The notes below the pieces were generated by a model. The model worked only from the letters and a program-made list of their open reading frames with translations, did not search any database and was not told the origin of the DNA. Positions 4,040 through 31,714 of a DNA stretch of 33,902 nucleotides are shown in pieces. Where the stretch lies: positions 1 to 33,902 of the forward strand of contig DRKQ01000094.1 in NCBI GenBank assembly GCA_011051685.1, written 5' to 3'. Position 1 is the stretch's first letter. Each line of letters opens with the position of its first letter. A program made the position numbers and the translations under genes. Origin of the DNA: Gammaproteobacteria bacterium. GTDB taxonomy: Bacteria > Pseudomonadota > Gammaproteobacteria > SZUA-152.

Positions 4040-4909
4040 ATGAACAGTATTGTTGAACAGAATCCTGAGAAGATCCGTGAGTTCCGCTTTACGGGGGCTG
4101 ATTTCCGCTTCATCCGCGACCTGGTGGGTGAACGCACTGGAATCGTGCTGTCGGACAATAAACGTGACCTGGTGTACGGCCGGCTTTCACGGCGCCTGCG
4201 GCAATTGGGCCTGTCGCGCTTTCGTGACTATTGCGACCTGCTGCAGGATGGCAATGATGAGGAAATGGTGAACTTCGTCAATGCCATCACTACCAATCTC
4301 ACCTCCTTTTTTCGGGAAAACCATCACTTCGAATTCCTCGCCAAGGATTTGTTGCCCAACCTGTTGCAGAAAAAAGTGGCAACCAATGCTCCCCGGCGTC
4401 TGCGTATCTGGTCCGCCGGTTGTTCGACAGGTGAGGAGCCTTATTCCATCGCCATGGTGCTCAAGGAGGTACTCGGCGACGATGGGAACTGGGATGCACG
4501 TATCCTGGCGACCGACCTGGATACCCGGGTGCTGGCCAAGGCCAGCAGTGGTATATACGAACAAGAGCGAGTGGAAGGACTTTCAAAGCCACGCCTGCGC
4601 CGCTGGGTTAAAAAGGGCAGTGGCAAGAATGCCGGGATGGTCCGTATGTCGCCGGAGTTGCGGGAGCTCATCACCTTTAAACAGCTCAACCTGATGGATG
4701 AATGGCCCATGAAGGGGCCCTTCGACTTCATTTTTTGTCGCAACGTGGTGATCTATTTTAACAAGCCGACCCAGCAACAGCTGTTTGATCGTTATGCCGA
4801 CCTGCTGGACGAGCAAGGCCATATCTTTCTGGGGCACTCGGAAACCATGTTTCAAAAAACCGATCGCTACAAGTTGATCGGCAAAACCATTTACCAAAAA
4901 GAATATTAA
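4040..4909 (+). CDS. cheR: CheR, chemoreceptor glutamate methyltransferase
   Basis: 289 residues, the usual length. CheR transfers methyl groups from S-adenosylmethionine to glutamates of chemoreceptors during adaptation. The N-terminal helical domain (about 15–80) is followed by the Rossmann methyltransferase fold; SAGCSTGEEPYS at about 125–136 is the SAM-binding motif, and DFIFCRNVVIYF is a typical later motif. The gene follows the receptor across a 97-bp gap containing a hairpin, and cheD starts 4 nt after its stop. The receptor ends in EWEEF, a plausible docking peptide for the CheR beta-subdomain. Confidence 0.96.
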   Translation: MNSIVEQNPEKIREFRFTGADFRFIRDLVGERTGIVLSDNKRDLVYGRLSRRLRQLGLSRFRDYCDLLQDGNDEEMVNFVNAITTNLTSFFRENHHFEFLAKDLLPNLLQKKVATNAPRRLRIWSAGCSTGEEPYSIAMVLKEVLGDDGNWDARILATDLDTRVLAKASSGIYEQERVEGLSKPRLRRWVKKGSGKNAGMVRMSPELRELITFKQLNLMDEWPMKGPFDFIFCRNVVIYFNKPTQQQLFDRYADLLDEQGHIFLGHSETMFQKTDRYKLIGKTIYQKEY

Positions 4910-4913
4910 TGTC

Positions 4914-5555
4914 GTGACTACCCTCAACGCAGGTCAACCGCCCGTTTTGCCGCGCCCCCTGCGCGGTTTTGAGCATGTCAAACGCTACTGGGACAAAACC
5001 AATGAAGCGGTGGTGGCGAAGATTCTTCCGGGAGAACTGTATGTGACCCGTATCAATGAAATGATCACCACGGTATTGGGTTCCTGCATCTCCGCCTGTA
5101 TCCGTGATCCCTATGCCAAGGTAGGGGGGATGAATCATTTTATGCTACCCATGTCGAAGGCGGATAATGTTAATGGTGATAAATTTGGTAGTGCGATGCG
5201 TTATGGAAATTTCGCCATGGAGCACTTGATCAATGAAATCATCAAGAATGGTGGACAACGTAAGAATCTGGAGGTCAAACTTTTTGGTGGTGGTCGAGTA
5301 CTGGCACACATGACCGATGTTGGTCAGCGCAACATCGAGTTCGCCCTCGAATATGTACAGGTGGAAGGCCTGAAACTGATCGCCGATGACCTGGGAGACC
5401 GCTTTCCCCGCAAGGTGCAATATTATCCTGCCAGCGGTGTGGCGCGCATGAAAAAGCTGCGTAGTATGCATAATCGCACGATTGTCGAACGGGAGGAGGC
5501 CTATATGAAGAATATTGTGCAGACGCCCGTGAGTGGAGAAATCGAGTTGTTCTGA
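4914..5555 (+). CDS. cheD: CheD, chemoreceptor glutamine deamidase
   Basis: 213 residues, starting at GTG 4914; the ATG at 4909 that overlaps the cheR stop closes after two codons. CheD deamidates receptor glutamines to glutamates and in many bacteria links CheY-P to adaptation. ITTVLGSC carries the catalytic Thr52 and Cys58, and GGMNHF carries His75; this spacing equals that known for Thermotoga CheD (T-6-C-17-H). FGGG near residue 125 is also typical. The N-terminal 40 residues before the core are longer than in minimal CheD proteins. Translational coupling to cheR is likely. Confidence 0.95.
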   Translation: MTTLNAGQPPVLPRPLRGFEHVKRYWDKTNEAVVAKILPGELYVTRINEMITTVLGSCISACIRDPYAKVGGMNHFMLPMSKADNVNGDKFGSAMRYGNFAMEHLINEIIKNGGQRKNLEVKLFGGGRVLAHMTDVGQRNIEFALEYVQVEGLKLIADDLGDRFPRKVQYYPASGVARMKKLRSMHNRTIVEREEAYMKNIVQTPVSGEIELF

Positions 5556-28243: not shown

Positions 28244-28313
28244 CGCGCACCTTGTTCGGCGTGCAGCGTGAATTGTTCAGCGCGAAGCCATCCGCGACGC
28301 ATGTCCACCACAG

Positions 28314-28389
28314 GCCGGTGTAGCTCAGTTGGTAGAGCAGCGCATTCGTAATGCGAAGGTCGGGGGTTCAACTCCTCTCACCGGCACCA
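28314..28389 (+). tRNA. tRNA-Thr (anticodon CGT)
   Basis: 76 nt including an encoded CCA. The acceptor stem GCCGGTG pairs with CACCGGC; the D-loop has AGCTCAGTTGGTAGAGC; the anticodon loop TTCGTAA has CGT at 28347–28349, on the perfect stem GCGCA-like arm (GCAT/ATGC); the T loop is TTCAACT. It reads ACG threonine codons. The T stem has two G-U pairs. It is unusual in that its last 22 nt are copied again at 28512, in the tandem repeat that follows. Confidence 0.97.
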
Positions 28390-28656
28390 GTTTTTCCTTA
28401 CAGTCTTGATGGGTTCACGCCGTCAAGCCTGTCGGGGGTTGACCTGCGCCATCCCTGGCGCAGGCCCTGCGGGCGCACTTCGTGCGTCCCGTTTTGCTCC
28501 GGGCAAAACGGTCAACTCCTCTCACCGGCACCAGTTTTTCCTTACAGTCTTGATGGGTTCACGCCGTCAAGCCTGTCGGGGGTTGACCTGCGCCATCCCT
28601 GGCGCAGGCCCTGCGGGCGCACTGGCGTGCGTCCCGTTTTGCTCCCGGCAAAACGG
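28368..28656 (+). repeat. Tandem 144/145-bp repeat that begins with the 3' end of tRNA-Thr
   Basis: Unit 1 is 28368–28511 (starting inside the T loop of the tRNA), unit 2 is 28512–28656. They differ only by TTC versus TGGC near 28479/28623 and one G/C change in the last hairpin. Each unit holds 22 nt of tRNA-Thr end with CCA, then four potential hairpins: 28405–28427, 28443–28464 (9-bp stem), 28471–28490 and 28489–28511 (9-bp stem, alternative to the end of the previous one). Both differences fall in loops. The arrangement resembles the rtT repeats after E. coli tyrT. The repeat is probably in the tRNA primary transcript. Confidence 0.93.
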
Positions 28657-28660
28657 TGGT

Positions 28661-28728
28661 CTGCGCCATTTCTGGTGCGAACCCTTCGGGCGCACTTCGT
28701 GCGTCCCGTTTTGCTCCGGGCAAAACAG
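28661..28728 (+). repeat. Third, partial copy of the tRNA-Thr repeat
   Basis: This matches the second half of the unit: a diverged CTGCGCCA stem (G-U pairs keep most pairing), then the GGGCGCAC–GTGCGTCCC hairpin and the GTTTTGC–GCAAAAC hairpin, both identical to unit 1. It lacks the tRNA-derived part. A trace of the next unit (TTGCGCCATCC) follows at 28733–28743. From there to 28840 no gene or clear terminator is visible. Confidence 0.85.
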
Positions 28729-28840
28729 TGATTTGCGCCATCCATGACGTAGGCTTTTCTTGCGCGCGGTGTGTGTCATTTTGCCAAGTGGCATTGCCGG
28801 CGGGTTGTTCCCCGCGCAGCTGACCGTCTCTCTGCGCTGT

Positions 28841-31714
28841 TTATGGCGTGCTGTAAACGACGCTTAAGGCGAAAGCTTTACCGGAGGCTGGGTCAAGCAG
28901 GTCAAAATGGGCTTTGATGCCTTTATCGGTGATATCGGCTGGGAGGATGGCAATAATGCCCATTTTTAATCCGCCACTGAGCACATTGCCATTTAAATTC
29001 GCGGGGTCAGTGGTGCTGAACAGGATGTCGCTGCCATTGAGCAGTTCATACTGTGTCAACGGGAAATCCCGGTTGGACAGGTTAAATAGGAAGAGACCGA
29101 ATCGGCTGCCGCTGAGCACGGTTGTACCCGAGGTCTTGGCATCAGCAAAGGCACCACCGGCAATCACGTCGTAGATCGTGGCTGAACTATACAGGAACGT
29201 GCTGTTGTGAATGGTGCCGGCATCAACACTGGCGCTGATTTGTAACAGGCCGTTCTGTGTGGTTGTGAATGAGGTGTTGGCGATCCCACCCGAGGTGACC
29301 AGGTTTTGGCTGCTGATCAATGTGCCATTCTGACGGATCTCCAGATTGATCACGGTTCCATCGGCGACGGTGGCATTTGGGTCGGCGGCCCGTACCCGAA
29401 CCTCCAGGGTGCTGCTGTCGGCGCCATCGTTGAGCAGTACATTGGGGTTGGCGAGCACCACTAGGGAAACCGGCCGCTGGGGTGTGTTGTTAATCGTCAG
29501 GTCAAGCGTGGCCGACAGGCCTGCATAGTTGGCAGTAATGCTGACGTTGCCAGTGACGCCAATTCCCGCGGTAACCAACCCCCTTTGCGTCGGTTGGTTG
29601 TCGACGAAGGCCAGGGTCGGGGTGACCGACCGCCAAGCCGCCTGCTGGGTAAGATCCTGGCTGCTGCCATCGGAAAAGGTGCCGGTCAGCGTAAGCTGCT
29701 GTTGCTCGGCACTGTCAAGAATGGTTTTGCTGCTGCTGATGCTCAGGCTTACGAGGCTGGCGGTGGCGATGTTGATAGGTGTGCTGTCCTGCATCCCATC
29801 GAGCAAGGCGGTGACCGTGGTGGCGCCGCTGGCCAGGGCAACCAAGAGGCCTTGCTGTCCATCGCCGTTTAAGGCCCGCAGCAGGGCCTCGTCAGCGCTG
29901 CTCCATGTCACCTGGGTGGTGACGTCCTTCTGGCTGCCATCGGAATAAGTGGCGATAGCCCTGAGTTGCAACTGGGTGCCCACCACCAGGCTGGGTGTGT
30001 CAGGGGTAATTTGCAGACTGCTTAGGGTGGCGTTGCTGACGCTGACCGTGGCATTGCCGGAGATGCTGCCCAGGCTGGCGCTGATACGGGCCACGCCTGG
30101 AGTGAGAGCGTTCACAGAGCCCCCGTTGACGGTGGCAATAGAGAGATTATCGGACTCCCAAAGGACCTGCTCGTCCAGCATTTGCACGGACCCATCGGAA
30201 AAGCTTCCTTCCGCGTGCACATCCTGATTGGCGCCGGGGAAAAGATTCAGTTCTCCGGGCTGCACATTGATGGATAACAGTTGGGCGCTGCTGACCGTCA
30301 GAGAGGCTGAGGCACTGATGCCATATAAGGTGGCCGTCACGCTGGTGGCGCCAACGCCCAGGGCGTTGGCCAGGCCATGTTCGTCGGTGGCATTGCTGAT
30401 GGCGGCTAAGCCCGGGTTGGCGGTGGACCAGCTGACCAGCGTGCTGATGTCTCGTACCGTGCCATCTGAATAATAGCCGTTTGCCAGGAACGTGGTCTGT
30501 GTTCCCAGGGCAAGGCGTGCATCGGGTGGGCTGATGTCGATGCTGGTCAGGGTGGCGGGGCTGACAATGAGTTCGAGACTGCCGGAAACAGCCCCCAGGG
30601 TGGCCGTGGCGGTGGCACTGCCCACCGCCAGCGCCGTGGCCAGACCCCGCTTGCCGCTGGCGTTGTCGATGGCCAGTGTCGAGGGAGGGCTGCTTTGCCA
30701 GGTTACCTGCTCACTGATGTCCTGCAGGGTACCATCGCTGTAATGGCCCAGGGCACGCAGTGCCTGTTGCTGGCCCAGGGGAAGGCTGTCGTTAGCGGCG
30801 GAGATTTCGATGCTGTTTAATATGGCGCTACTGACGGTGATGGTGAGCGTGCGGCTGATTCCAGCAAGACTGGCGCTGACGTTGGTACTGCCGATACCTT
30901 GTGGTTGCACGAGACCCTTGGCATCAATGTCAACAATGCCGGTGTCGGCACTGTTCCAGTTGACTTGATCGCTGAGATCCTGGCTGCTGCCATCGCTGTA
31001 CAGGCCCAGGGCAGTCAGACTGAGTTGAGTACCCAGCGGCAGGTTGGGGGCCTCCGGGTTGAGTGTGATCTGGGTCAGTTCGGCGGCAGTAATGGTGACG
31101 CCGATTTGCGTGGATATACCGCCCATGCTGGCAGTGAGTTGGGTATTGCCCACGGAAAGGCCGGTCACCCTGGCGGAAGCGGACAGGCTGGCAATGGCGG
31201 TATCGGCAAGAGTCCAGCTTGCCTGATCCGTCAAGTCTTGTGTGCTGCCATCGCTGTATTGACCAATCAGGGTCAATTTACCGCTGGTGCCGTTGGCCAG
31301 CTGCAGACTCGGGGGGCTGATTTCCAGGCTGGAAAGGCTGGCACTGGTGACGGTGAGAGTGGTGCTGCCGCTGATGGCGCCAAGGGTGGCCAGTATCGTC
31401 ACCTGGCCCGCGGCCAGGGCATTTACCTCACCGCTGGCGGATATCGTGGCAATGGTGTTGTCGCTGGATTGCCAGGTAACGGACGTTGAGAGCGTGCTGG
31501 TACTGTTGTCGCTGTTAATGCCGGTGGCGACCAGAGTAAGCGTGGTGCCTGCGGCCAGGGAAGGTTGGCTTGGAGTGACTTCAATGCGCGAAAGGCTGGT
31601 GCCGGCTGTGCCATCGTTACCTCCACCACCTCCTCCGCAGGCGAGGAGAAGAAGGCAGCACAAAAATACCGGAAAATACCGCAGGGAAGTCAGGCTACCA
31701 ACTATTCGTGACAT
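28841..31714 (-). CDS. Lipoprotein with eight Ig-like (BID_2) repeats
   Basis: 957 residues. The lipobox LLLLAC gives Cys26, followed by a Gly run. From about residue 40 to 730 there are eight repeats of roughly 85–90 residues, each starting like LSSLEISPPSLQLANGTSGK and containing YSDGS–DLT–V-W-S, the bacterial Ig-like group 2 pattern. A further Ig-like domain (starting RPVSLVVLANPNV, closer to the invasin/BID_1 type) and a C-terminal domain of about 110 residues follow. It is probably a surface-exposed adhesin or matrix protein. Repeat sequences are well diverged, so the array is old. Start ATG 31714 has no strong ribosome site. Confidence 0.9.
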   Translation of the reverse strand: MSRIVGSLTSLRYFPVFLCCLLLLACGGGGGGNDGTAGTSLSRIEVTPSQPSLAAGTTLTLVATGINSDNSTSTLSTSVTWQSSDNTIATISASGEVNALAAGQVTILATLGAISGSTTLTVTSASLSSLEISPPSLQLANGTSGKLTLIGQYSDGSTQDLTDQASWTLADTAIASLSASARVTGLSVGNTQLTASMGGISTQIGVTITAAELTQITLNPEAPNLPLGTQLSLTALGLYSDGSSQDLSDQVNWNSADTGIVDIDAKGLVQPQGIGSTNVSASLAGISRTLTITVSSAILNSIEISAANDSLPLGQQQALRALGHYSDGTLQDISEQVTWQSSPPSTLAIDNASGKRGLATALAVGSATATATLGAVSGSLELIVSPATLTSIDISPPDARLALGTQTTFLANGYYSDGTVRDISTLVSWSTANPGLAAISNATDEHGLANALGVGATSVTATLYGISASASLTVSSAQLLSINVQPGELNLFPGANQDVHAEGSFSDGSVQMLDEQVLWESDNLSIATVNGGSVNALTPGVARISASLGSISGNATVSVSNATLSSLQITPDTPSLVVGTQLQLRAIATYSDGSQKDVTTQVTWSSADEALLRALNGDGQQGLLVALASGATTVTALLDGMQDSTPINIATASLVSLSISSSKTILDSAEQQQLTLTGTFSDGSSQDLTQQAAWRSVTPTLAFVDNQPTQRGLVTAGIGVTGNVSITANYAGLSATLDLTINNTPQRPVSLVVLANPNVLLNDGADSSTLEVRVRAADPNATVADGTVINLEIRQNGTLISSQNLVTSGGIANTSFTTTQNGLLQISASVDAGTIHNSTFLYSSATIYDVIAGGAFADAKTSGTTVLSGSRFGLFLFNLSNRDFPLTQYELLNGSDILFSTTDPANLNGNVLSGGLKMGIIAILPADITDKGIKAHFDLLDPASGKAFALSVVYSTP

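Follow-up and report, generated by a model that had tools for sequence, protein, structure and literature searches.

The stretch of DNA analysed here (the window; 33,902 nucleotides, contig DRKQ01000094.1 from a gammaproteobacterium of the GTDB lineage SZUA-152) carries a single tRNA gene according to ARAGORN, an intact tRNA-Thr(CGT), which is followed by an array of near-identical repeats (Table 1). The same tRNA-Thr gene, identical in sequence, is found in congeners without the repeats. Directly 3' of the array, a large protein with six Big_2 Ig-like stretches is encoded on the minus strand (28841-31714), and sequence like that of this region is also located 3' of the tRNA in congeners.

Table 1. 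Features of the tRNA-Thr locus in window coordinates. E denotes the 72-nt hairpin element; the R1 scores of E copies 1, 2 and 3 are those of sequences on which covariance model (CM) R1 was trained.
Feature	Position	Strand	Evidence
Intact tRNA-Thr(CGT)	28314..28389	+	ARAGORN; Rfam tRNA, 67.3 bits
Unit 1 spacer, 41 bp, with hairpin CTTGATGG...CCGTCAAG	28390..28430	+	sequence; DNA fold
Partial tRNA copy: 5' strand of T-stem plus T-loop TT, GTCGGGGGTT	28431..28440	+	
Element E copy 1, 72 nt, between TT and CAA of T-loop	28441..28512	+	CM R1, 95.1 bits
Partial tRNA copy, T-loop to CCA, CAACTCCTCTCACCGGCACCA	28513..28533	+	sequence; direct repeat
Unit 2 spacer	28534..28574	+	direct repeat of 28390-28430
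Second copy of T-stem 5' strand	28575..28584	+	direct repeat
Element E copy 2, 73 nt, with TGGC in one apical loop and C in another	28585..28657	+	CM R1, 93.0 bits
Element E copy 3, adjoining copy 2, without tRNA tail	28658..28729	+	CM R1, 80.7 bits
Degenerate element E copy 4	28730..28793 (about)	+	CM R1, 20.2 bits, E-value 0.235

The two full units contain a perfect direct repeat of 112 nt, with copies starting at 28368 and 28512 (spacing 144), and the spacer of unit 1 is repeated in unit 2 without a single change. Comparison of the full units revealed only two differences, TTC/TGGC in the third hairpin and G/C in the last hairpin, both located in apical loops. An earlier note on this DNA had described a tRNA-Thr gene followed by near-identical 144/145-bp repeats, each opening with the 3' part of the tRNA (T-loop through CCA) and differing at two places in loops, and this layout was confirmed by ARAGORN, the direct repeats and the comparison of the units, with a tail of 21-22 nt. 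Overlooked at that time were, in each unit, the 10 nt of T-stem directly 5' of the hairpin block, along with two more such blocks (copies 3 and 4 in Table 1; the latter has 73% identity over 37 nt and also lacks a tRNA tail), and solitary blocks elsewhere in the genome.

The order of the unit is the T-loop-to-CCA end, the 41-bp spacer, GTCGGGGGTT as the 5' strand of the T-stem, the 72-nt element E, and then CAACTCC...CCA. Element E lies exactly in the T-loop, with GGGGGTT on its left and CAACTCC on its right, and its removal restores the T-arm; the resulting junction at 28431..28440 shows 18/18 identity to the T-loop of tRNA-Thr. With E present, the T-stem runs on into the ends of E (TTGACC...GGTCAA) in the predicted DNA fold. 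Folding of the unit as DNA gave a z of -5.6 and folding of E copy 1 as RNA -41.5 kcal/mol with a z of -4.7, equal stability being reached in 0/200 shuffles in each case. We regard this composite anatomy of the unit as practically certain.

Element E is about 72 nt long and consists of three to four hairpins in a fixed order, namely H1 (of the GCGCCATCCCTGGCGC type), CCCTNCGGG, H3 and H4, with the end NGTC. Standard pairs occupy 91% of the pair cells across 83 aligned copies. On this alignment, which was fitted to the model, double changes numbered 432 versus 116 in shuffled data, and the covariation score was 0.524 versus 0.161 for shuffled and below 0.08 for slid controls. The loop-only changes of the earlier note amount to two changes in two recent copies; the real structural evidence is the covariation across the family.

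DNA searches together with model R1 identified about 29 copies of E in this genome at an E-value below 0.01. R1 also matched 15 of 24 genomes from the family and, for the class as a whole, 91 of 276 sampled gammaproteobacterial genomes, and a pattern scan of named genomes identified E in Woeseiaceae, Lysobacterales, Chromatiales, Zetaproteobacteria, Methyloversatilis, Legionella and others, with Ectothiorhodospira mobilis DSM 4180 among the carriers. Taken together with the conserved structure, this dispersal suggests that E is very probably a mobile element.

Copies of E are also located inside the open reading frames of protein genes and at other intergenic sites; the reading frame continues through E in dnaE of five genomes and in several further genes. 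The copies in dnaE (L068, L070, L071, L072 and L077, at 1501-1573) occupy nearly one place in five genomes of two genera, keep the frame open and lengthen the alpha subunit of DNA polymerase III by about 24 residues. At L109 and L150, in two genomes, E is read through in a gene for a putative ComEC-like (competence) membrane protein. At one further site (L062 at 1501-1582; C259:21699-21780), E is nested in the loop of another E, between CCCT and CGGG, and the outer E sits in the T-loop of an apparent partial tRNA copy. Several copies away from tRNAs (L043, L046, L107, L112 and L288) adjoin a TTTTGGTTACTTTTCTTTG...CAAAG-like sequence that recurs and may represent a further repeat family.

The association of E with tRNA genes was determined for 169 loci picked by score with their context ignored. 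An intact tRNA was located within 300 bp of E in 54 of these, nearly always at a distance of 41-114 bp; in an independent set, a tRNA lay within 150 bp in 26 of 67 named loci, versus 2.9% of random positions of the same loci. About two thirds of the E loci have no tRNA nearby, which counts against the explanation favoured below. Where tRNAs are present, the flanks of E are highly specific: for 18 matches, the junction left after removal of E was identical to a tRNA at 18/18 positions, mostly in the T-loop, and none of 400 random control junctions exceeded 16. When 51 interrupted copies, spanning 22 tRNA species and having a median spacer length of 80, were compared with the adjoining tRNA, 73% scored at least 18, versus 0% against other isotypes. 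The flank of each of these E copies is thus derived from the local tRNA, and the loci therefore represent separate events with one anatomy.

The T-loop is not the sole position used within tRNAs, as D-loop insertions were found in Ser and Arg-CCT and an anticodon-loop insertion in Ser-CGA. In these cases (L194, anticodon loop of a partial tRNA-Ser(CGA); L199 and L131, D-loops of a partial tRNA-Arg(CCT) and a partial tRNA-Ser), the partial copies lie upstream of the intact gene in tandem arrays. At non-tRNA sites, the left flank of E ends in T in 99/117 cases and has a T one position earlier in 70/117. Insertion thus shows a preference for sites 3' of TT. Hairpin-loop targeting as a general rule was rejected, as the flanks at non-tRNA sites have no clear excess of stems.

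The Thr locus was compared with its counterparts in congeners, which keep tRNA-Thr and have no E beside it; an exact empty site was not found here, the congener sequence 3' of the tRNA being too different. Empty sites were found in congeners at three other tRNAs of this genome, Glu, Ser-GCT and Pro. At Ser-GCT, a relative reads GGGTTCGAATCCC...CCATTCAAATGAG, and in this genome GGGTTCG and AATCCC are separated by a block, the native tail and its flank being displaced beyond E; Glu and Pro are alike in this respect. The DNA that follows the intact tRNA at these three loci, a new spacer often with a terminator, is absent from the site in these congeners. The T-loop is therefore occupied by a block made up of a replacement tRNA 3' end plus E, and the original 3' end has been displaced. 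An empty site, a replacement 3' end and a displaced native end, the marks of a tRNA-integrating element, are present at all three tRNAs.

A different order of events is that duplication came first, the tail and the DNA downstream of it being copied by slippage or by a series of template switches at hairpins (T-arm, terminator); E would have landed later, in a T-loop that was by then dispensable. This order would account for the variation in the number of units among arrays, and an inverted tRNA piece, a signature of template switching, adjoins E in 25 of 41 downstream cases, its T-loop often reading TGAGAA instead of TTCGAA. In 15 of the 28 complete cases, the Thr window among them, similar DNA follows the two tails; this similarity is also explained by simple tandem duplication or by arrays. 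In the other 13 cases, however, the DNA after the two tails is dissimilar, at Glu, Ser and Pro congeners lack the spacer and the native flank is located beyond E, and the narrow distance of 41-114 bp together with a short T-stem remnant recurs at 22 tRNA species. We therefore regard duplication before the arrival of E as rather unlikely.

The duplicated T-loop-to-CCA end also resembles attL/attR, and the earlier note had offered a remnant of site-specific integration as one alternative. In this explanation, the tRNA once harboured a prophage or a conventional integrative element, of which deletion left only the two attachment sites. The empty sites at three other tRNAs come close to this proposal; the integrase that it calls for was not found among the neighbouring window proteins tested, and the unit is too short to encode one. 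Likewise, no transposase or integrase recurs beside E, and any one Pfam family was present in at most 2 of the 99 ORF stretches around it. Random deletion would also not be expected to leave a uniform spacer (median 80) over unrelated tRNAs, nor a junction that is always marked by E, and a decayed conventional element is consequently very improbable. RAYT was likewise rejected as the mobiliser of E, since RAYT genes are found whether a genome is rich in E or lacks it.

The reading that we favour, and consider probable, is that E is a non-coding mobile palindromic element which inserts into T-loops with the tRNA restored, and that the array in the window was made by E. Insertion would take place 3' of TT, a tRNA T-loop (between TT and CRA) being a very frequent site. 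The block entering the T-loop would comprise the replacement tRNA 3' end, the spacer (often with a terminator), the T-stem and E, and would arrive or be assembled at once, such that the tRNA would never be lost, as with integrative elements that bring along a new 3' end for the tRNA; judging from the sequence comparisons, we lean towards such insertion of the block in one event. In the window, the block would then have been tandemly duplicated to give the 144/145-bp units, and two further copies of E would have joined them. The activity could be supplied by a recombinase or transposase acting in trans, or by the host replication machinery via template switching. Of the rivals, template switching at hairpins is the foremost, and it may itself be the way in which insertion occurs.

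The closest known parallel is formed by the rtT repeats of E. coli tyrT and tyrV (Rfam RF00391, RtT; rttR), in which an intact tRNA is likewise followed by units with the tRNA 3' end. In MG1655, the sequence 3' of tyrT and tyrV reads, with minor variants, GGGGAAGGATGAGAAGCTTCGAC-AAGGTTC-[70-nt palindromic block]-AATCCTTCCCCCACCACCA; it is located about 87 nt past CCA and recurs after tyrV with a period of 178 bp. The E. coli unit thus comprises an inverted T-arm with the changed T-loop TGAGAA, AAGGTTC, a 70-nt palindrome and AATCC...CCA. It differs from the locus described here in that the tRNA is Tyr and that E is in the opposite orientation and strongly diverged; the Thr units, unlike it, have neither the inverted T-arm nor a match to RtT. 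The best matches of model R2, which was built without E. coli sequences, within the E. coli rtT locus are these same blocks in antisense, the best being full length at 20.3 bits, a score that would lack genome-wide significance; R1 reached only about 7 bits in the same locus.

The Rfam RtT model, derived from enterobacterial repeats, matched 62 of 274 gammaproteobacterial genomes, 19 of them above the curated score. Among the best 20 RtT loci, 18 have a tRNA (Tyr, Gln, Ser) on their own strand no more than 150 bp away. An R2 match was located inside 19 of these 20 loci, one of which belonged to the R2 training set, on the opposite strand and in most cases with its start 18 nt from the 3' end of RtT. 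This genome has RtT matches on C280, above the cut-off, and on C39, C259 and C253, below it, and the matches of RtT coincide in part with those of E at the Gln (C39) and Pro (C259) loci. On C280, at about 4568-4971 (L306), three E matches cluster with the RtT match on a stretch with no intact tRNA and with a tail resembling tRNA-Ser. Because of the shared anatomy, the exact boundaries and the overlap of RtT with E, the E. coli rtT repeats look like a diverged member of the E class with E in the opposite orientation. The Thr locus (28314-28657) has the anatomy of the rtT type, with tRNA-tail units and a palindromic block in the T-loop; it does not belong to RF00391, as no RtT match was obtained in 28250-28900 up to an E-value of 10, presumably because the orientation of E is reversed and the inverted T-arm is missing. 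Weak Rfam matches in the window (sX7, sX13 and RsmW) were far below the gathering scores and were taken as chance.

The comparison with E. coli tyrT had been made in the earlier note and was better founded than its author could know, given the common anatomy and the RtT/E overlap. Its suggestion that tRNA-tail repeats form a general class is likewise supported: the covariance search that it proposed returned many homologues behind other tRNA genes across gammaproteobacteria, and E-bearing partial copies at 22 tRNA species. What found no support is that the repeats are primarily an RNA gene like rtT, since the Thr unit has no RtT match and its hairpins constitute a dispersed element. As an explanation in its own right, a small-RNA gene under selection, in which a transcript shared by the tRNA and the unit would be processed to a stable RNA, draws on the annotation of E. 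coli rttR as an ncRNA made from such units, on the strong conserved structure of E and on the breadth of RtT matches noted above. The unit is, however, wholly absent from congeners, E occurs in protein-gene reading frames and elsewhere, and Paratyphi A strains vary by 175 bp in their rtT copy number (PMC2658671), leaving this explanation improbable. RepRanger places rttR among the sRNAs with a predicted REP (PMC12306157).

A broader reading, on which we are evenly divided, is that non-coding mobile units of about 140-190 bp target nearly all kinds of tRNA gene, entering the T-loop or at times the D- or anticodon loop, supply a replacement 3' end with a spacer/terminator and end in a 72-nt palindrome, with E. 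coli rtT as an unrecognised member. No description of T-loop insertion as a class was found in the literature searched, most of it outside subscription papers. The repeats behind E. coli tyrT would thereby gain an anatomy and origin common to dozens of genera, and tRNA-tail repeats become a class that can be searched by covariance model. The results point to an insertion process with a T-loop target, in which a very small non-coding unit leaves the tRNA gene whole. Truncated tRNA copies and VNTRs behind tRNA genes may also be explained by E blocks.

Among other known systems, the CGTC-tagged palindromic repeats, or Rickettsia palindromic elements, are described as ending in CGTC (or TGTC/CCTC), with a stem of 8-9 bp starting A-T and a loop of 4-5 nt (PMC3733652). 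In the passages of that source relevant here, they resemble E in the end (NGTC in E), the hairpin form, the presence in protein genes including dnaE and the lack of a known dedicated transposase (PMC3733652), and E likewise has their trait of lying in open frame within protein genes. Measured against this published description of the family, the last hairpin of E has about 8 bp and, in many copies, A-T first pairs and a loop of 4-5 nt (commonly AAATTC.../...GAATTT), but it starts C-G in the window copies. E differs in its length of about 72 nt, its three to four ordered hairpins and its presence in tRNA T-loops, insertion into which goes unmentioned in those same passages (PMC3733652). GTAG REP/RAYT systems resemble E as dispersed palindromes with possible mobilisation in trans; E differs from them in that its consensus has no GTAG end and that RAYT neither tracks E nor recurs beside it. 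The E block is set apart from islands and phages that integrate into tRNA genes by its size of about 140-190 bp and the absence of an integrase gene, and has in common with them the duplicated T-loop-to-CCA end and the restored tRNA.
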